In this document: positions 48,465 through 59,480 of the stretch, piece by piece | How the letters are laid out: every line of letters begins with the position of its first letter | Numbering within the stretch: position 1 is the first letter of the stretch | NCBI GenBank assembly: GCA_009663185.1 | Contig: VJZX01000003.1 | Span: 62,001-126,000 of the forward strand | Origin: Isoptericola halalbus | GTDB taxonomy: Bacteria > Actinomycetota > Actinomycetes > Actinomycetales > Cellulomonadaceae | DNA length: 64,000 nt | Direction of reading: 5' to 3' | Notes under the pieces: generated by a model | Told to the model about the DNA's origin: nothing | Databases searched by the model: none | The model's input: the letters and a program-made list of their open reading frames with translations, nothing else | Program-made: the position numbers and the translations under genes

Positions 48465-49136
48465 GTGGAGATGGAACCTTTCGAGCTGCTTCTCGTCGAG
48501 GACGACGCCGATGTCCGCGACACCACTCGACTGATCTTGGAACGACACGGGTTCGCGGTGCGCACCGCGGCGGACGGGACCGAGGGGTACGCGCTGGCCA
48601 GCGCGTACCTCCCGGCCCTCGCCGTCGTCGACGTGGCCATGCCGGGCGTGGACGGACTGACCCTGACCCGGCGGCTGCGGGAGGAGTTCTCGACCCCGGT
48701 CGTGCTGCTGACGGCGCGCGACCTCAACGTCGACGTGGTCGCCGGTCTGGAGGCGGGGGCCGATGACTACGTCGTCAAGCCGTTCGACGGAGCGGTCCTG
48801 GTGGCCCGCATCCGAGCGGTGCTGCGCCGTACCCGCCGAGGTTCGGCGGAGACGGTCCGGCTCGGGGACCTGCTGATCGACCGGGGTGCCATGACGATCC
48901 GTCGCGGCGAGGAAGAGGTGCAAGTGAGCGCCACCGAGTTCCGGTTGTTGATGCTGCTGCTCGACCACAAGCCGGCGGTCCTGTCGCGCGCCCAGATCCT
49001 GCGGCACGTGTGGGGGGACGAGAGCTGGGGCGAGGGGCGGGTGGTGGACGTCAACATCCAGCGGTTGCGGGCCAAGCTCGGGACACCGGCGATCGTGACC
49101 GTGCGCGGGGCCGGCTACAAGATCGTGGATCCATGA
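48465..49136 (+). CDS. OmpR/PhoB-type response regulator
   Basis: A protein of 223 residues. The receiver domain has acidic residues E12-D13-D14 (LLVEDDAD), the phosphorylated D56 (VVDVAMPGVDG), T83 (LLTARD) and K105 (VVKPFDG). The winged helix covers about 130-223 (EVQVSATEFRLLMLLLDHKP, RVVDVNIQRLRAKLG, TVRGAGYKI). GTG at 48465 or ATG at 48471 may be the start; neither has a good ribosome site. Confidence 0.93.
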   Translation: MEMEPFELLLVEDDADVRDTTRLILERHGFAVRTAADGTEGYALASAYLPALAVVDVAMPGVDGLTLTRRLREEFSTPVVLLTARDLNVDVVAGLEAGADDYVVKPFDGAVLVARIRAVLRRTRRGSAETVRLGDLLIDRGAMTIRRGEEEVQVSATEFRLLMLLLDHKPAVLSRAQILRHVWGDESWGEGRVVDVNIQRLRAKLGTPAIVTVRGAGYKIVDP

Positions 49137-51971: not shown

Positions 51972-52014
51972 GGAAGCCGGAAGGAAGGTTCTGGGAAGGC
52001 GGTCCGAGGAGAGT
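51972..52014 (+). promoter_or_regulatory. SARP-type direct repeats and -10 before azlC
   Basis: Heptamers GGAAGCC (51972), GGAAGGT (51983) and GGAAGGC (51994) recur at exactly 11 bp. The last ends at 52000; eight bases later a weak -10 GAGAGT (52009-52014) follows. This is the spacing reported for SARP activators. Further GGAAAG and GGAAGG copies at 51928 and 51941 are out of phase. Confidence 0.65.
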
Positions 52015-52050
52015 GACGTTCGTCAGCGCAGACCGACCCAGGAGTACGAG

Positions 52051-52776
52051 ATGCACACGACGGACGTCATCGCCGACGTCGTCGCGACGCCGCGCGGATA
52101 CGCCGACGAGCTCGCCGGAGGCGCCCGGGCGATGCTGCCGTGGCTGGCCGGGGTCGTCCCGTTCGGTCTCGTCATCGGCGTCGCCGCGGCCCAGGCGAAC
52201 ATCTCCACTTTCGCCGGCTGGCTGACCGGGCCGCTGATCTACGGCGGGAGCGCGCAGATCGCCACGATCGAGATGCTGAGCGCCGGCGCGTCTCCGGCTG
52301 TCGTGGTGCTGACCGCACTCGTGATCAACCTCCGGCTGGTCCTCTACTCCGGCGCGATGGCCGCGTACTGGCGCGGGACACCACGGTGGTGGCGCGCCCT
52401 CGCGGCGTACCTGCTGATCGATCCCTCGTTCGTGGTCGGCAGCGACCGCTACGAGCGCGGCGGGGACCACACCCGCGGGCATGTCCACTACCTGGGCGGC
52501 GCCGTCCTGCTCTGGGTCGCCTGGTTGCTGGCCATCACGGCCGGCGCCACCCTGGGCGCGCGGATCCCTGCGGCACTGCACCTCGAGTTCGTCGTCCCGC
52601 TGTACCTGATCGGAGAGGTCAGCCGCAGGCTCTCCGACGTCGCGACCCGCCGGGCGGCACTGACCGCCGCGGTCGTCGCCGTCGTCGCCTTCGCGCTGCC
52701 TCTCCACCTGGGCGTGCTGCTGGCGATCGTCGCAGGCCTGGCCGCCGGGCTCACGGCTCAGGGGGTGCGGTCATGA
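52051..52776 (+). CDS. azlC: AzlC, branched-chain amino acid exporter subunit
   Basis: Membrane protein of 241 residues with about seven helices. AzlC signatures are LPWLAGVVPFGLVIGVAAAQ, GGSAQIATIEMLSAG and NLRLVLYSGAMAAYWRG. With AzlD it forms a two-component permease exporting branched-chain amino acids or related compounds. AGGAG precedes the ATG. It is divergent from the ScfR gene and overlaps azlD (ATGA). Confidence 0.92.
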   Translation: MHTTDVIADVVATPRGYADELAGGARAMLPWLAGVVPFGLVIGVAAAQANISTFAGWLTGPLIYGGSAQIATIEMLSAGASPAVVVLTALVINLRLVLYSGAMAAYWRGTPRWWRALAAYLLIDPSFVVGSDRYERGGDHTRGHVHYLGGAVLLWVAWLLAITAGATLGARIPAALHLEFVVPLYLIGEVSRRLSDVATRRAALTAAVVAVVAFALPLHLGVLLAIVAGLAAGLTAQGVRS

Positions 52777-53093
52777 CCGCCTTCGTGGTGATCGTGCTGG
52801 CCGGGATGGGCAGCTACGTGTTCCGCGTCAGCATGCTCGTGCTCGCCGAGCGGGCCAGGCTGCCCGAGCCGCTGGAACGGGCGTCAGGTTTCGTCGCCCC
52901 GGCCGCCTTCGCGGCGCTCGCCGCCACCGGAGTCGCCGCGGCAAGCCTGGGTGCCGACGTCGCGACCGCCGTCCCGCCGCTCGGTGCGGTCGCGGCTGCC
53001 GTCGCCGCCGTCCGCCTGACCAGGCGTTCCTACGCCGCACCGCTCGTCGGCATGCCGGTGCTGTGGCTGCTCACCGCCCTGGTGGGTGACTGA
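52773..53093 (+). CDS. azlD: AzlD, branched-chain amino acid exporter small subunit
   Basis: A protein of 106 residues with three to four helices. VVIVLAGMGSYVFRVSMLVL, FVAPAAFAALAATGVAAASL and RRSYAAPLVGMPVLWLL fit the AzlD family. Its ATG overlaps the azlC stop. Confidence 0.9.
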   Translation: MTAFVVIVLAGMGSYVFRVSMLVLAERARLPEPLERASGFVAPAAFAALAATGVAAASLGADVATAVPPLGAVAAAVAAVRLTRRSYAAPLVGMPVLWLLTALVGD

Positions 53094-53125
53094 TGCGCAG
53101 CCCTTTCCCTGTGCGAGCCCCACCG

Positions 53126-53157
53126 GGAAGGTTCCGGGAAGCCTACCGACCTAGCTT
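53126..53157 (+). promoter_or_regulatory. SARP-type direct repeats and -10 before the osmC-like gene
   Basis: GGAAGGT (53126) and GGAAGCC (53137) are 11 bp apart. Exactly eight bases after the second heptamer stands a -10 TAGCTT (53152-53157). The same heptamers precede azlC. Transcription should start near 53164, leaving a leader of about 50 bases. Confidence 0.72.
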
Positions 53158-53170
53158 TCGACATGTCCCC

Positions 53171-53202
53171 GACACCACACCGAAGAGACACCACACCGAA
53201 GA
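53171..53202. repeat. Perfect tandem 16-bp repeat in the osmC-like gene leader
   Basis: GACACCACACCGAAGA occurs twice in a row (53171-53186, 53187-53202). The second copy runs into the ribosome-binding site GAGAGG. Confidence 0.9.
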
Positions 53203-53213
53203 GAGGTTCCACC

Positions 53214-53783
53214 ATGACCAGCACCACCGAACGTCCGGCCCTCAACGGGGTCGACACGCCCACGTTGTTCACCACCCTCGACGCCGTGCGCGAGCAGCCG
53301 GAGATCGCCAAGTTCCAGTTCCGCGCGACCAACCGTTGGGTGAGCGGCACGCACAACCGCAGCACGATCCACGGCTACTACGGCGCCGGCCAGGAGTTCG
53401 AGCACCGCGCGCCGACCGTCATCGACGCCGACCACCCGCCGGTGCTCGTCGGCAACGACAACGGACCCGCGCCGGTCGAGTACGTCCTGGGGGCGCTGGC
53501 CGCGTGCCTCACGTCCGGCCTGGCCAACATCGCTGCCGCGCGCGGCATCGAGCTGACCGAGGTCGAGTCGTCCGTCACCGGCGACATCAACCTGCTGGGC
53601 ATCTTCGGCATGTCCGACGAGGTCCGCAACGGCTACGAGCAGATCCAGGTCGACTTCACGATCAAGGGCAACGCGCCCGAGGAGAAGCTCCGCGAGCTCG
53701 TCGAGCAGTCCCGCGACCGCTCGGCCGTGTACGACGTGATCACCGGCTCCGTACCCGTGAAGCTCAACATCACGACCGGTTGA
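53214..53783 (+). CDS. OsmC-family protein with a single conserved cysteine
   Basis: A protein of 189 residues. The OsmC fold is recognised by HRAPTVIDADHPPVLVGNDN, PAPVEYVLGALAACLTSGLA (first active-site Cys) and KLNITTG at the end. The second cysteine of peroxide-reducing OsmC/Ohr proteins is absent: the matching region reads SRDRSAVYDVITGSVPV. It therefore probably does not act as a classic hydroperoxide reductase. AAGAGAGG lies before the ATG. It is first in a row with two flavoproteins and the SARP gene. Confidence 0.88.
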   Translation: MTSTTERPALNGVDTPTLFTTLDAVREQPEIAKFQFRATNRWVSGTHNRSTIHGYYGAGQEFEHRAPTVIDADHPPVLVGNDNGPAPVEYVLGALAACLTSGLANIAAARGIELTEVESSVTGDINLLGIFGMSDEVRNGYEQIQVDFTIKGNAPEEKLRELVEQSRDRSAVYDVITGSVPVKLNITTG

Positions 53784-53860
53784 GCCTCCGGCGGCACGGC
53801 CGGCGGGAGTCGCCTCCCGCCGGCCGTGCCGCACCCGCGCACGACAGGACTGAGGACGAG

Positions 53861-55102
53861 ATGAGAACGATCGACACCCTCGTGATCGGTGCCGGGCAGG
53901 CCGGCCTCGCGACCAGCCGATGCCTCACCGAAGCAGGCCGCGAGCACGTCGTGCTGGACCGCGCCCGCCCGGCGGAGAGCTGGCGCAGCGCTCGCTGGGA
54001 CTCCTTGCGCCTCGTCACGCCGAACTGGATGAGCCGCCTGCCCGGGTGGAGCTACCAGGGCGACGACCCCGAGGGGTACATGTCGGTGCCCGACCTCGTG
54101 CGCTACCTCGACGCCTACGCGACCTCGTTCGAGGCCCCCGTCCAGACCTGGACGACGGTGCTCGACGTCCGGCCGGGCGACGGTGGCTATCAGGTGACCA
54201 CCTCGTCCGGCGGCTGGAGGGCACGCCACGTCGTCGTGGCCGCCGGACCACGGCCGCGGGTGCCCACCGTGGCGGCAGACCTGGCGCCCGGACTGTGGCA
54301 GCTGCACACCGATCGTTACCGCAACCCGCGCAGCCTGCCATCGGGAGGCGCGCTCGTGGTCGGCGCCTCGGCCTCAGGAGTGCAGATCGCGAGCGAGCTG
54401 CGCGGCGCAGGCCGCGACGTCGTGCTCGCCGTCGGTCAGCACACCCGGCTGCCGCGTCGCTACCGGGGCATGGACATCCTGTGGTGGCTCGAACGCATCG
54501 GCGCGCTCGACCGCACCGTCGACGACCTCGGAGACGTCCGGCGGGCCCGTCGCGAACCGTCCTTGCAGCTGGCCGCCGGACGCGAGCTCGACCTCGACCG
54601 CCTCGCACGCCACGGCGTCATGATCACCGGTCGGCTCACAGCGGCCGACGGCTACCGGGTCCGCTTCGCCGACGACCTGCCGACGACGACGGCCGCCGCG
54701 GAGAGGCGTCTGCGCCGGACCCTGGCCGCCATCGACGGGCACGTTCGTGCCGCGGGGCTCAGGGGCGAGGTGCTCGCGCCGGCGGACATCCACCCGGTGC
54801 GCGTGCCGCCCGGACCGGCGGAGCTGGACCTGCGCGCGGCCGGGATCTCGACCGTCATCTGGGCCACCGGCTTCGACTATCGCTATCCGTGGCTGCGGGT
54901 GCCCGTGCACGACGCCGACGGCGAGATCAAGCAGTACCGAGGGGCCACCGACGCCCCGGGTCTGTACACCGTCGGGCTGCGGTTCATGCATCGCCGCAAC
55001 GCCCAGTTCATCGACGGTGTGCGCCACGACGCGCACGCGATCGTTCGGCACCTGACCGGGACCACCGACACCGCGGCCCCGGTCCTTGCGACGAAGGAGT
55101 GA
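53861..55102 (+). CDS. Flavin-containing monooxygenase-like oxidoreductase
   Basis: A protein of 413 residues. FAD motif TLVIGAGQAGLATSRCL, then WRSARWDSLRLVTPNWMSRL, the NAD(P)H motif LVVGASASGVQIASEL and the late ATG-type motif VIWATGFDYRYPWL. It resembles single-component FMO/CzcO-like proteins. The substrate is unknown. TGAGGACGAG lies before the ATG. It starts 77 bp after the osmC-like gene and ends 4 bp before the next gene. Confidence 0.88.
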   Translation: MRTIDTLVIGAGQAGLATSRCLTEAGREHVVLDRARPAESWRSARWDSLRLVTPNWMSRLPGWSYQGDDPEGYMSVPDLVRYLDAYATSFEAPVQTWTTVLDVRPGDGGYQVTTSSGGWRARHVVVAAGPRPRVPTVAADLAPGLWQLHTDRYRNPRSLPSGGALVVGASASGVQIASELRGAGRDVVLAVGQHTRLPRRYRGMDILWWLERIGALDRTVDDLGDVRRARREPSLQLAAGRELDLDRLARHGVMITGRLTAADGYRVRFADDLPTTTAAAERRLRRTLAAIDGHVRAAGLRGEVLAPADIHPVRVPPGPAELDLRAAGISTVIWATGFDYRYPWLRVPVHDADGEIKQYRGATDAPGLYTVGLRFMHRRNAQFIDGVRHDAHAIVRHLTGTTDTAAPVLATKE

Positions 55103-55106
55103 GCAG

Positions 55107-56282
55107 ATGACCGCTTCCCCTGACGTGATCGTCGTGGGTGCGCGCTGCGCCGGGTCGGCGACCGCGATGCTGTTGGCCCGCCAGGGCCTCGACGTGCTCG
55201 TTCTCGATCGCGGGCAGCACGGCGGCGACACGGTCTCGACGCACGCGCTGATGCGCGGCGGGGTGCTGCAGCTGCAGCGCTGGGGCGTGCTGGACCGGAT
55301 CGTCGCCGCGGGTACCCCACCGGTGCGGCAGGCCGTGTTCCACTACCCGGGCGAGTCCGTCCGCATCACGATCAAGCCGGCCGCGGGCGTGGACGCGCTC
55401 TACGCGCCACGCCGCACCGTGCTCGACCCGGCGCTCGCCGATGCGGCCGCGGAGGCCGGAGCCGACGTGCGATTCGGCACGGGTGTCACCGACCTGCTCC
55501 GCGACGACACCCGACGGGTCACCGGCGTCGTCGCGCGGGATCGCGCGGGTCGGGTCCTGCAGGCGACCGCACCGCTGACCATCGGTGCGGACGGCATCCG
55601 GTCGACGGTCGCGGACGCGGTGGGCGCGCCCGTGCTCCGACGAGCGCGCGGGTCGGGTGGGGCCTTCCTCTACGGTCACTGGGACGAGCTGCCGGTCGAC
55701 GGCTATGAGTGGGTCTACGCGCCCGGCACGAGCGCGGGGCTCATCCCGACGAACGACGGCCGGACGACCGTCTTCGTGGGCACGACGCCATCCCGGATGA
55801 AGCAGGTTCGGTCGGGCGCGAGCACGTTCCAGGTGCTCGACGACCTGCTGCGCTCCGCGTCGCCGTCCGTGGCCGACCGCGTGGCCAGCGCCCGGCGGCC
55901 AGCCCGGCTGCGCGGGTTCGCCGGCACTCCGGGCTATCTGCGGAAGGCCTGGGGACCGGGCTGGGCGCTCGTCGGAGACGCCGGCGGGTTCGAGGACCCG
56001 CTGAGCACGCACGGCATCACCGACGCGTTGCGCGACGCGGAGCTGCTGGCCCGGGCGGTGCACGCGTCCCGCGAAGGTACGGATGGCGAGCAGGAGGCGA
56101 TGGCCGCCTACCAGGCAGTACGTGACGGCATGGCCGACCACCTGTTCGACGTGGTGGACACGATCGCGTCGTACTCGTGGACGATGCCCGAGCTGCGCCG
56201 TCTGCTGCTCGAGGCCACCTCCGCGATGAGCGAGCAGGTCGAGCGGCTGGAGCGGCTCGACCCGGCCGCCGTCGACGCCTGA
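55107..56282 (+). CDS. FAD-dependent oxidoreductase (geranylgeranyl reductase/halogenase-like fold)
   Basis: A protein of 391 residues. FAD binding is seen in VIVVGARCAGSATAMLLARQ, the middle DG motif in TIGADGIRSTVADAVG and the late motif in LVGDAGGFEDPLSTHGITDA. It belongs to the PHBH-like superfamily. No tryptophan pattern of flavin halogenases (GWxWxIP) is seen. The substrate is unknown. AAGGAGTGAGCAG lies before the ATG, so it is coupled to the gene upstream. Confidence 0.85.
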   Translation: MTASPDVIVVGARCAGSATAMLLARQGLDVLVLDRGQHGGDTVSTHALMRGGVLQLQRWGVLDRIVAAGTPPVRQAVFHYPGESVRITIKPAAGVDALYAPRRTVLDPALADAAAEAGADVRFGTGVTDLLRDDTRRVTGVVARDRAGRVLQATAPLTIGADGIRSTVADAVGAPVLRRARGSGGAFLYGHWDELPVDGYEWVYAPGTSAGLIPTNDGRTTVFVGTTPSRMKQVRSGASTFQVLDDLLRSASPSVADRVASARRPARLRGFAGTPGYLRKAWGPGWALVGDAGGFEDPLSTHGITDALRDAELLARAVHASREGTDGEQEAMAAYQAVRDGMADHLFDVVDTIASYSWTMPELRRLLLEATSAMSEQVERLERLDPAAVDA

Positions 56283-56312
56283 GGCCCCTGTACATCGCCG
56301 ACGTGCACGCAC

Positions 56313-59300
56313 ATGATGGTTCGGGGGGCGTCGGTTCTCATGGAGGCGACGTTGGACAGACCGTCCGGTGCCAAGATCGAGATCACCGTCCTCGGCGGAT
56401 TCGAGGTCGTCGTCGACGGCGCGCCCGTGGAGGCGTCCGCGTGGCCGCGCCCCCAGGCGGCGAGCCTGGTCAAGGTCCTCGCCCTTGCGCACGGACACAG
56501 GCTCCACCGCGAGCAGCTGATCGACCGGCTCTGGCCGGAGCTGCCCGTGGCCGAGGCCGCACCGCGCCTGCACAAGCTCGCGCACTACGCGCGCCGTGCG
56601 CTCGGGGAGGGGCCCTCCGTCGTCCTGCGCGACGAGACCGTCGCCCTCCTGCCCGACGGCGACGTCGTCGTGGACGCCGACGTCTTCGCGGACGCCGCCT
56701 CCACGGCCTTGAGAGACGGGTCGGCTGACGCGGCGTCGGCCGCTGCCGACGTCTACGCGGGCCCGCTGCTGCCGGACGACCGGTACCAGCCCTGGACCGA
56801 GGACCTGCGCGAACACCTGCGGATGCGGTATCACGAGCTGCTCCGGGCGGCGGGCCGGTGGGACGACCTGCTGGCGGACGACCCCACTGACGAGGATGCG
56901 CATCTGGCACTGATGACCCAGCACTTCGAGGCCGGCGACCATCGGTCGGCGCTCCGCCAGTTCGAGCGCATGGACCAGGCGCTGCGTCAGGAGCTCGGGC
57001 TCGGACCGGGCCGCGCGGCGCTGGCGCTGCGCGACCGGATCCTCGCCGACGCGCCGGACGAGCCCACCGTCGGCCTGGGTGAGCTCGTCGGCCGTCGCGG
57101 TACGCAGGAACAGCTTCAGCGCCTGATGGCCGACGCGCTGCACGGCCGCGGGCGCACCGTCCTCGTGGACGGACCACCCGGGGTGGGCAAGTCCGCCCTG
57201 CTGGAATGGGTGCGCGCCCACGCCGAGCGGTCCGGGTGGCGGACCGGTCACGGTGTCGCCGCCACGGTCGAGGGTGCGTGGCCGTACGCACCGGTCCTGG
57301 ACGCCCTCGCCGATCTCTATCGGCGGCACCCCAGCCTGCTCGACGGCCTGGACGACACGTACCGCAAGGAGATCGAGCGGGCGATCACCGGCGAGGAGCT
57401 CACCTGGAGCGGGGAGGGAACGCACCAGCGTCTGTTCGTGGCCGCGGCCGAGCTCCTCCGGCTCGGCGCCGCCGGCACGGGTCTGGTCCTCACCCTCGAC
57501 GACGTGCACGAGGCGGACGACGCGAGCCTCCGGCTGCTGCACTACCTTGCCCGGCGGCTCGGGGGCGAGCGGCTGCTCCTGGTCGTCGGCCACCGACCGG
57601 GTGGACACCGGATCGACCAGCTCCGGGCCAGCCTGCTGCGCCGCGGCGTCGCGTACGACCTGCCGCTCGGCCCGCTCGACCGGGCAGGCACGGACGCGCT
57701 CGTGCGAGCGCTGCGACCGGGCCCGGGCATGGACGTGCTCGACCACATCTGGGCGGTGTCCGCCGGGCTGCCGTTCGCGGTCGTCGAGATGGCGGGGGCC
57801 ACGCCGGCCGGCGCCGCAGCGCGGGTCGGCACGCTCGGCCTGTCCCGGCTCGCGGTCAGGACCCGCAGAGCGCTGCAGCAGGTCGCGGTGATCGGGATGA
57901 CGTTCGACACCGACCAGTTCGTCGCCCTCACCGCGTTGCCCGAACCCGAGGCCTTCGCAGCGCTCGACGCCGCGGTGTCCGCCCTCGTGCTCGTCCACGG
58001 CGGCTCGGGCTACCGGTTCCGGCACGCGCTGATCCGCGACGCGCTCCTGCACGACGTCGCGCCGGCCGAGCGCCGCGCGTTCCACCGCCACGCCGCGGAG
58101 CGGCTCGACGCGATCGGTGCGCCCCAGGCCCGGATCGCTCACCATCTCATCGCCGCCGGCAAGCTCTCCGACGCGGTCCCGCACGTGCTGCAGGCGGTCG
58201 AGACCCAGGCGGCGATCGGGGCGTACCGAGATGCGCTGGCGTTGATCGACGCCGTCCGGGAGCAGGCTCGACCCGACGACCATGCGCGCCTCCTGGCGTT
58301 GCGCGCGAACCTGCTGGCTGCCCTCGGGGACCGGTCGACCGTCGCCGCGTTCCGTGCGGCCCTGGCCGTCGCGGACGACGCAGAGGTGCCGCTGCTGCGG
58401 GCCCGGATGGCGCAGGCGGCGGTGATGGAGGGCGACCTCGAGACGGCAGCGACCATCGTCGAGGGGTTGGAGCCCTCCGGGGGCCGGGCCGACGTCCCGA
58501 TCCTGCTCGCCAAGGGCAGCGTGGCGTACCTGAGCGGCGACGTCGACACCGCGTGGAAGGTGTCGGACCAGGTCTGCGGCATGGTGCGACCGGAGGAGAA
58601 CACCTGGCAGCGGCTGGACCTGCTGACCCTGCAGGCTCTCATCGCCCACCACCGTGGCGAGATGTTCACCCGGCTGCGGGTCGAGCTGCGCAGGGCGCAC
58701 GACGACCCCGCACTGACGCGCACGCTGTACGACCCGTACCTGTGCGTCGTCGAGTACCTGCTGTACGGCACGACGCCGTACTCGGAGATCCGCACCATGA
58801 TGACGTCGCTGCGTGATACCGCACGACGCTCGGGCGTGCTCCGCGCGGAAGCGTTCGCCACCGCCGTGCTCGGGGAGGCGGCATTGCTGGCGGGCGACCT
58901 GGCCGAGTCGGAGCGGCAGCTCGAGGAGGCCGTCGACCTCTACCGCGACCTGGCGGCTCCGGCGGCCGAGGCCAGCACGCTCCAGCGGCTTGCCGAGCTG
59001 AGGCTCGTGCAGGGGGACCGCGTCGAGGCCGACCGCCTGCTCCGGCTGGCGTTGCCCCGGGCCCGGTGGTCGATGCTCTCCCTCCACCTCGTCCAGCGGA
59101 TCTTCGGCACCTTGATCCGCGCCGCGGCGGACCCCGTGGCCGCGCGGGCGGTGGTCGAGGAGGCGAGCGCGGTGATGGGGCGCGAGGACGCGTGCGTCTT
59201 CTGCGACATCATGTTCGCCGTCCCCGCGGCGATCGCCTGCGCCGACGTCGGCGACCTCGACGACGCCAGGCGGTACCTCGCCGTGGCGGAGCGGTCGTCG

Positions 59301-59480
59301 ATGCTCTGGGAGGGGACCGCGTGGCAGGCTGCCGTCCTCGAGGTGCGTGCGCATCTCGCCCGGGCCGAGAACGACCTGAGCACCGGTGCGCGTCTGCTGG
59401 ACGAGGCGGCGGTCCTGTTCGACCAGGCCGGCCAGCCGCTGGACGCCGAACGCTGCCGCGACGAGCACCGCGCGGCGTGA
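56313..59480 (+). CDS. Large SARP-family regulator with AAA ATPase and TPR-like region
   Basis: A protein of 1055 residues. An OmpR-like winged helix at about 20-105 (ITVLGGFEVVVDGAPVEASA) is followed by the BTAD domain at about 105-250 (DEDAHLALMTQHFEAGDHRS, MDQALRQELGLGP), an AAA ATPase with Walker A GPPGVGKS (287-294) and Walker B LVLTLDDVHEADD (about 393-405), and a long alpha-helical TPR-like half. No C-terminal LuxR domain. This is the AfsR-like 'large SARP' plan. The start is uncertain: ATG 56313, 56316 or 56340. SARP-type repeats lie before azlC and the osmC-like gene. Confidence 0.9.
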   Translation: MMVRGASVLMEATLDRPSGAKIEITVLGGFEVVVDGAPVEASAWPRPQAASLVKVLALAHGHRLHREQLIDRLWPELPVAEAAPRLHKLAHYARRALGEGPSVVLRDETVALLPDGDVVVDADVFADAASTALRDGSADAASAAADVYAGPLLPDDRYQPWTEDLREHLRMRYHELLRAAGRWDDLLADDPTDEDAHLALMTQHFEAGDHRSALRQFERMDQALRQELGLGPGRAALALRDRILADAPDEPTVGLGELVGRRGTQEQLQRLMADALHGRGRTVLVDGPPGVGKSALLEWVRAHAERSGWRTGHGVAATVEGAWPYAPVLDALADLYRRHPSLLDGLDDTYRKEIERAITGEELTWSGEGTHQRLFVAAAELLRLGAAGTGLVLTLDDVHEADDASLRLLHYLARRLGGERLLLVVGHRPGGHRIDQLRASLLRRGVAYDLPLGPLDRAGTDALVRALRPGPGMDVLDHIWAVSAGLPFAVVEMAGATPAGAAARVGTLGLSRLAVRTRRALQQVAVIGMTFDTDQFVALTALPEPEAFAALDAAVSALVLVHGGSGYRFRHALIRDALLHDVAPAERRAFHRHAAERLDAIGAPQARIAHHLIAAGKLSDAVPHVLQAVETQAAIGAYRDALALIDAVREQARPDDHARLLALRANLLAALGDRSTVAAFRAALAVADDAEVPLLRARMAQAAVMEGDLETAATIVEGLEPSGGRADVPILLAKGSVAYLSGDVDTAWKVSDQVCGMVRPEENTWQRLDLLTLQALIAHHRGEMFTRLRVELRRAHDDPALTRTLYDPYLCVVEYLLYGTTPYSEIRTMMTSLRDTARRSGVLRAEAFATAVLGEAALLAGDLAESERQLEEAVDLYRDLAAPAAEASTLQRLAELRLVQGDRVEADRLLRLALPRARWSMLSLHLVQRIFGTLIRAAADPVAARAVVEEASAVMGREDACVFCDIMFAVPAAIACADVGDLDDARRYLAVAERSSMLWEGTAWQAAVLEVRAHLARAENDLSTGARLLDEAAVLFDQAGQPLDAERCRDEHRAA

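Follow-up and report, generated by a model that had tools for sequence, protein, structure and literature searches.

Introduction

Regulators of the SARP family (Streptomyces antibiotic regulatory proteins) are known mainly as antibiotic switches, and excerpts of one report (PMC10936776) give the rule for their targets as direct repeats 11 or 22 base pairs (bp) apart, the last of which lies 8 bp from the −10 element. Here we describe a 64,000-nucleotide stretch of Isoptericola halalbus DNA (contig VJZX01000003.1, positions 62,001 to 126,000; hereafter the window), in which a gene for a large SARP-ATPase stands at the end of the gene cluster azlC-azlD-osmC-fl1-fl2-SARP (fl1 and fl2 encode flavoproteins), and in which GGAAGSY heptamers recur at 11-bp intervals before azlC and before osmC.

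The described system that most resembles this locus is that of AfsR and its target afsS in Streptomyces coelicolor. As presented in the excerpts cited above (PMC10936776), AfsR combines a SARP domain, a nucleotide-binding domain and a TPR region, as the SARP of the window does apart from a TPR region that is only a candidate, and acts at 11-bp direct repeats that overlap the −35 region and lie, as they do here, 8 bp before a weak −10 element (CACTGT in afsS). AfsR is also the best structural match of the model of our SARP, itself a low-confidence model, and the two are 23–24% identical over the domain. The AfsR repeat sequence differs from the GGAAGGY-type repeats found here. The SARP-LAL proteins of the PimR type (PMC5930380, in excerpt) share with this locus the use of two or three heptamers 4 bp apart, but the excerpt gives a different consensus (CGGCAAG), an operator that does not lie over the −35 region, and as target pimM of a polyene cluster. 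The only sequence match to the SARP in the PDB is EmbR of Mycobacterium tuberculosis (2fez/2ff4), which shares the SARP DNA-binding fold but carries an FHA domain in place of the ATPase and TPR parts.

The literature searched, partly in excerpt and with subscription journals outside its scope, contained no paper that describes this heptamer or a SARP acting on osmC, azlC or mycothiol genes, nor any description of the regulon, its conservation across families or the apparent match between helix and repeat set out below. The operator and the mode of action are those of a classical SARP; it is the controlled gene set for which no earlier description came up.

Results

Exact heptamer arrays are rare in the genome

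A preliminary description of the window, made from the sequence alone, had placed three heptamers before azlC and two before osmC at an 11-bp period, with 8 bp between the last heptamer and a candidate −10 element in both arrays; the coordinates, the period and the gap all proved exact (Table 1). The window contains three GGAAGSY-N4-GGAAGSY pairs, whereas among 300 simulated windows (order 1, from the dinucleotides of the window) one contained a single pair and 299 contained none. In the whole genome the exact pair pattern has four matches, at three places, versus two when the pattern is reversed as a control. Allowing one mismatch gives 19 matches versus 24 controls, which is no excess, and only exact arrays are therefore informative. 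When the pattern includes a hexamer at 8 bp (GGAAGN6GGAAGN11ANNNT), the genome-wide repeat search that the preliminary description had proposed returns three places in 4.10 Mb, namely azlC, osmC and C31:32501-32532, and none for the control. The arrays agree with the published SARP target rule, and the azlC promoter of another genome, G277, carries CACTGT itself.

The arrays and the 8-bp gap recur at orthologous promoters

The preliminary description had made its proposal depend on the repeats being present in orthologous clusters, and arrays are indeed found at the orthologous promoters. The pattern GGAAGGYN4GGAAGSY has 12 matches in six genomes versus 4 controls, and nine of the 12 precede azlC (three with a short open reading frame (ORF) between), osmC or the ORF on contig C31. 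Arrays stand before azlC, or before a short ORF and azlC, also in genomes G155, G277, G252 and G441, and before osmC in seven other genomes, in one of which (G335) the promoter is that of MaoC-osmC. Nocardioides ungokensis has an array before osmC, and the single GGAAGGYN4GGAAGSY match in its 4.6-Mb genome precedes a 45-codon ORF and an azlC gene whose product is 34% identical to that of the window and which lies 1.36 Mb from its osmC cluster. With arrays at both of these unlinked loci, the regulon has been kept there and the linkage has not.

The repeats are spaced by 11, 11+11 or 22+11 bp, and by 12+11 bp in N. ungokensis. Some arrays depart from the consensus: in G335 the heptamers GGAAGGA, GGCAGGC and GGAAGGT precede MaoC-osmC-fl1-fl2, with a 902-residue SARP about 4 kb away, and in G063 four variant heptamers (GGAAACG, GGAACGC, GGAACGC and GGAAACG), first recognised by eye and only later covered by a looser rule, keep the 11-bp period and are followed by 8 bp and TAGCGT. 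Four of the 21 pair matches in ten further genomes precede fl1 (G164, G250, G372) or osmC-fl1 (G292), each 8 bp from TAGCTT, and in these four genomes a full-length SARP gene lies away from the arrays. Another three, which stand before other genes, are followed at 8 bp by the hexamer (G292 C49, immediately behind the SARP gene; G292 C334; G164 5482112), three precede SARP genes, and the remaining 11 lie in coding or unclear places.

The gap itself is invariant at the genes of interest. In each of 17 array-bearing promoters of azlC, osmC, fl1 or mshD (12 genomes) the hexamer NANNNT follows after exactly 8 bp, and all other distances from 0 to 19 together give one hexamer match in the same promoters. 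Among sites found with no hexamer in the search pattern, it stands at 8 bp in 13 of 13, or in 13 of 16 if the three SARP-promoter sites (G164, G372), left out of both this count and that of 17, are included. The pattern of array plus hexamer has 34 matches in 34 genomes versus 2 controls.

Array presence follows the SARP DNA-binding domain

A search of 29 OsmC-bearing genomes with residues 1–251 of the SARP gave a match at E <= 1e-25 in ten and none in the other 19. An array with hexamer lies upstream of the best osmC in seven of eight genomes with the SARP domain versus none of 19 without it (Fisher p = 9e-6, which is indicative, since the genomes do not count as independent of one another and additional osmC copies lie outside the count). 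The count took 1.5 kb upstream of the best osmC per genome, less at a contig end, and left out the I. halalbus genome and N. ungokensis. Six of the seven positives have the strict form of the array and G335 the relaxed form; the array of G252 is the one before azlC. The exception among the eight, G164, has its array at fl1.

A putative recognition helix, PRLHKxxHxARxA, is present in all 14 domain sequences that cover it, from ten genomes with GGAAG arrays (G250, G372 and G395 were left out of this alignment). The SARP of G063 has NLRK in place of RLHK, and the repeats there are the variants GGAACGC/GGAAACG. Six aligned SARPs of congeners, which the array searches did not cover, have LRVALHAAR at the helix position. 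The best matches of the model of the DNA-binding part are AfsR (8k60/8hvr) and EmbR, with a Foldseek probability of 1.00 over 242–268 alignment columns. Comparison across genomes thus brings out the putative operator, its spacing and its co-occurrence with the SARP domain, and the predicted canonical SARP activation at these arrays is well supported; both the arrays at orthologous promoters and their association with the SARP domain support the SARP-type operators that the preliminary description had proposed.

A third site precedes a mycothiol synthase gene

The third array lies outside the window, on the minus strand of contig C31, and reads GGAAGGT-N4-GGAAGGC, 8 bp, GAGTCT. Behind it, with its ATG 46 bp past the last heptamer, is a 52-codon ORF (L050:10310-10468, minus strand), and behind this ORF is mshD, which encodes mycothiol synthase (TIGR03448, 293.7 bits, cut-off 163.1). 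A thiol or redox role had been one guess of the preliminary description, and an array before a mycothiol synthase gene lends it support. The regulon, which had been supposed to be self-contained, is not, since it has this third site on another contig and since the genome encodes one more SARP whose putative recognition helix is identical (see below).

We consider it quite probable that the cluster is a SARP regulon in which the large SARP, on GGAAGGY repeats, activates azlCD, osmC-fl1-fl2(-SARP) and the short ORF with mshD. The large SARP (winged helix, BTAD, STAND-type ATPase and TPR) would be activated by a signal and would bind side by side on the GGAAGGY repeats, 8 bp upstream of a weak −10 element, in place of a −35 element. 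It would then recruit RNA polymerase to azlCD, to osmC-fl1-fl2 and, via read-through, to its own gene, and, elsewhere in the genome, to the short ORF and mshD. The function of such a regulon might be protection against thiol-reactive or oxidising compounds, by the one-cysteine OsmC, mycothiol synthase and the two flavoproteins, while AzlCD would export a small amino acid or thiol compound, a proposal in which we place roughly even trust.

Several points weigh against this reading. That the SARP binds and activates these promoters is something we infer, and the cell chemistry is a guess from enzyme families. The model of the SARP is of low confidence (mean predicted local distance difference test score, pLDDT, 65.9), and its TM-scores to AfsR and EmbR are 0.27–0.38. 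In the ten further genomes the pair pattern without the hexamer shows no excess (21 matches versus 19 controls), and the three matches that precede the SARP gene itself (one in G164, two in G372) have no −10 element at 8 bp. Eight of the 34 matches of array plus hexamer are in six genomes without the SARP domain and lie away from osmC, none of them on a contig with an osmC match among the osmC matches listed. G252 and G164 have no array before osmC, G063 has none before its second osmC, and the array at mshD is known from one genome only, that of I. halalbus. Lastly, a protein related to the ATPase/TPR part occurs in G064, which has neither a matching DNA-binding part nor an array.

A second SARP and hydrolase-fused regulators

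The second SARP of the genome, on contig C67 (L053:10055-11671), has 538 residues and joins a SARP DNA-binding half to an alpha/beta-hydrolase domain. Its presence makes it a serious alternative, or an additional candidate, for the binder of the sites: these might be bound mainly or jointly by the C67 SARP, with the hydrolase domain as a possible ligand sensor, which we regard as possible but doubtful. The DNA-binding part of this protein is 54% identical to that of the SARP-ATPase and has the same helix (PRLHKxxHxARRA), and its hydrolase half is 56–60% identical to a winged-helix/hydrolase regulator encoded divergently from azlC in G155, G252 and G277. Related architectures occur near the same genes: hydrolase domains are fused to OmpR-type (L068, L070, L123) or LuxR-type (L121) DNA-binding domains near azlC, osmC or fl2, with a winged-helix/hydrolase protein near osmC/fl2 in G064 and a LuxR/hydrolase protein there in G055. 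On the regulator side of the azlC promoters of G155, G252 and G277 there is, moreover, a second array of three 11-bp heptamers (GTGGAGA-like) that faces the regulator. Against the C67 SARP, no exact array of its own genome is linked to it, and in the five other genomes in which osmC adjoins a SARP the arrays go with the ATPase SARP.

In plant strigolactone perception a hydrolase acts as a hydrolysing receptor. By a wider and rather improbable reading, the locus would belong to a mobile actinobacterial regulon for electrophile or thiol stress, with a GGAAGGY and RLHK code common to two sensors, the STAND-ATPase SARP and the alpha/beta-hydrolase SARP; the hydrolase domain, swapped elsewhere onto OmpR- or LuxR-type DNA-binding domains near the same genes, would be a hydrolysing receptor for a small lactone- or ester-like compound detoxified by the flavoproteins and OsmC.

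A possible role of the array-linked genes in detoxification

Arrays could be assigned to azlC(D), osmC, fl1, mshD, the MaoC-type gene of G335, two GNAT genes and a glyoxalase-family gene. The array-linked GNATs of G335 and G441 are 58% identical to each other, and the glyoxalase-family gene is divergent from the SARP gene in G153, an arrangement also found in G395. The main alternative to protection and export is a small pathway of specialised metabolism, in which AzlCD would serve as exporter and the flavoproteins would be tailoring enzymes. In its favour are the two flavoproteins of the cluster and the reputation of SARPs, in the excerpts used, as activators of antibiotic biosynthesis (PMC10936776, PMC7040171). 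We think this unlikely: across the genomes read, no polyketide synthase, nonribosomal peptide synthetase or other core biosynthetic enzyme was seen among the array-linked genes (several sites in large genomes have no assigned gene), which vary instead towards detoxification types (mshD, GNAT, MaoC, glyoxalase family). Of the two roles considered in the preliminary description, the thiol/redox one gains the mshD site; for specialised metabolism the assigned genes offer no core enzyme. The module seems not to be the local switch of an antibiotic cluster.

The preliminary description had also named an OmpR-type regulator, encoded at 48465, as another binder of the repeats. OmpR-family winged helices also bind direct repeats, but none of the gene models in the retrieved orthologous clusters is homologous to this regulator and array presence follows the SARP domain, and we reject it as very improbable. 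That the repeats arose by chance, as the missing excess of pairs in the ten further genomes and, with a mismatch, in I. halalbus might suggest, is next to inconceivable given the simulated windows, the arrays at orthologous promoters with their 8-bp gap in 17 of 17, and the co-occurrence with the SARP domain.

Implications

The proposed SARP regulon for redox functions and export takes SARPs out of antibiotic clusters. EmbR is another exception to the antibiotic role, and excerpts of PMC10936776 name phosphate and nitrogen targets of AfsR as exceptions too. An operator that can be read from sequence allows target sites to be predicted for a branch of large SARPs, and the apparent match between helix and repeat (RLHK with GGAAGGY; NLRK with GGAACGC/GGAAACG, in one genome) offers a handle on a SARP recognition code. 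Through the link with mycothiol synthesis, one possible function is open to direct test.

The cluster is sporadically distributed

An OsmC of the cluster type (E <= 1e-20) is found in none of the 17 other genomes of the genus, and SARP matches in congeners reach at most 40% identity among the matches listed. The complete cluster azlC-azlD-osmC-fl1-fl2-SARP is present in G155, G252 and G277, which all belong to a single other family, with identities to the I. halalbus proteins of 66–68% for the SARP and 77–80% for OsmC. Partial forms are osmC-fl1-fl2-SARP in N. ungokensis and osmC-fl2-SARP in G072; near-full-length SARP relatives (51–68% identity) adjoin osmC in five other genomes. The guanine-plus-cytosine content of the cluster is not distinct from that of its surroundings. 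The cluster is probably a sporadic, horizontally moved module. A search of viral contigs found no relative of OsmC.

Relatives of osmC and fl1 (about 40–48% identity) are also neighbours in loci L102-L104, L106-L110, L112 and L117, whose genomes have neither the SARP domain nor an upstream array at osmC; the same neighbour pair occurs in L105, from G164, where the SARP domain is present. This suggests that osmC and fl1 may be an old functional pair.

Genes of the cluster

Table 1. Putative operators, candidate −10 elements and genes of the cluster (positions in the window unless prefixed by a locus)
Feature	Position	Strand	Details
Operator before azlC	51972..52000	+	heptamers GGAAGCC 51972, GGAAGGT 51983, GGAAGGC 51994
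Candidate −10 of azlC, GAGAGT	52009..52014	+	8 bp past last heptamer (ends 52000)
Operator before osmC	53126..53143	+	heptamers GGAAGGT 53126, GGAAGCC 53137
Candidate −10 of osmC, TAGCTT	53152..53157	+	8 bp past last heptamer (ends 53143)
azlC, amino-acid exporter large subunit	52051..52776	+	PF03591 101.7 bits
azlD, small subunit	52773..53093	+	PF05437 39.2 bits
osmC, OsmC-like protein, 189 residues	53214..53783	+	PF02566 69.3 bits, cut-off 27.5 (longer ORF 53163-53783 scored)
fl1, flavin-dependent oxidoreductase resembling TIGR04046 and ArsO	53861..55103	+	below both cut-offs
fl2, FAD_binding_3 / geranylgeranyl-reductase-like flavoprotein	55107..56282	+	TIGR02032 105.3 bits, cut-off 158.8 not reached
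SARP-ATPase, 1055 residues (BTAD, AAA_16, MalT-like TPR)	56313..59480	+	Pfam
GTGGAGA-like second array	L068:3734-3762		between azlC and divergent winged-helix/hydrolase gene
GTGGAGA-like second array	L069:4007-4035		between azlC and divergent winged-helix/hydrolase gene
GTGGAGA-like second array	L070:4448-4476		between azlC and divergent winged-helix/hydrolase gene

The size given earlier for the SARP-ATPase is confirmed, and a similarity comparison with this protein brings up no other SARP in the window. Its BTAD scores 37 bits (cut-off 22.1), and its AAA_16 domain 84.7 bits (cut-off 32.6), the nucleotide-binding domain expected of large SARPs; the C-terminal TPR_MalT match (25.8 bits) is below the cut-off of 45, and Pfam gives no score for the winged helix of this protein. 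The relative in N. ungokensis has TPR_12 at 31.8 bits (cut-off 30.1). Gaps of 3 bp between fl1 and fl2 and of 30 bp between fl2 and the SARP gene suggest that osmC to the SARP gene form one transcript from the osmC promoter, through which the SARP would raise its own level. The gene that follows encodes phosphoenolpyruvate carboxykinase (PEPCK).

The genes azlC and azlD are encoded together, as in the AzlCD/BrnFE exporters of branched-chain amino acids; AzlC scores 41.2 bits against the azlC equivalog TIGR00346 (cut-off 332.35, not reached), and the family match does not fix a substrate. The nearest named relatives of fl1 are TIGR04046 (MSMEG_0569; 340.9 bits, cut-off 498.35) and ArsO (126.1 bits, cut-off 425), with neither curated cut-off reached. 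Peroxidases of the OsmC/Ohr superfamily have two catalytic cysteines. The product of osmC has the OsmC domain of this superfamily and, as the preliminary description had noticed, a single cysteine, C98, which is invariant in six of six aligned sequences. In Ohr both cysteines matter, according to an excerpt of PMC4486171, and the protein is best called OsmC-like, with peroxidase activity unproven. Its nearest solved relative is the OsmC-like protein of PDB entry 2opl, itself labelled a hypothetical protein.

Further observations

Near the mshD site, 17 bp away and on the opposite strand, a near-match (GGATGGT-N4-GGAAGGC) points to an SgcJ/EcaC-type gene (TIGR02246; L050:10713-11238). By eye, a signal-peptide-like upstream stretch of this gene is in a frame that differs from that of the conserved part, and the gene may be broken or misassembled.

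Short ORFs of 38–81 codons lie directly behind arrays at L050:10310-10468 (−), L069:4156-4347, L068:3878-4123, L082:1317-1454 (−) and L179:1568-1684. They match no Pfam or NCBIfam family, are mostly arginine-rich, and two start MxTNLS; they are candidate genes.

Two small SARPs lie elsewhere. In G164 (L193:13593-15623) a second small SARP gene stands directly before an azlC gene (58% identity; PF03591); the fl1 that bears the array is about 12 kb away, and no GGAAG array was seen before this SARP gene or this azlC gene. In N. ungokensis (L195:5324-6653) a small SARP gene, whose product shares the recognition helix of the SARP-ATPase, overlaps one of the ArsI/CadI family (NF041414, 167.7 bits, cut-off 116), hinting at a small SARP over arsenic or metal resistance.

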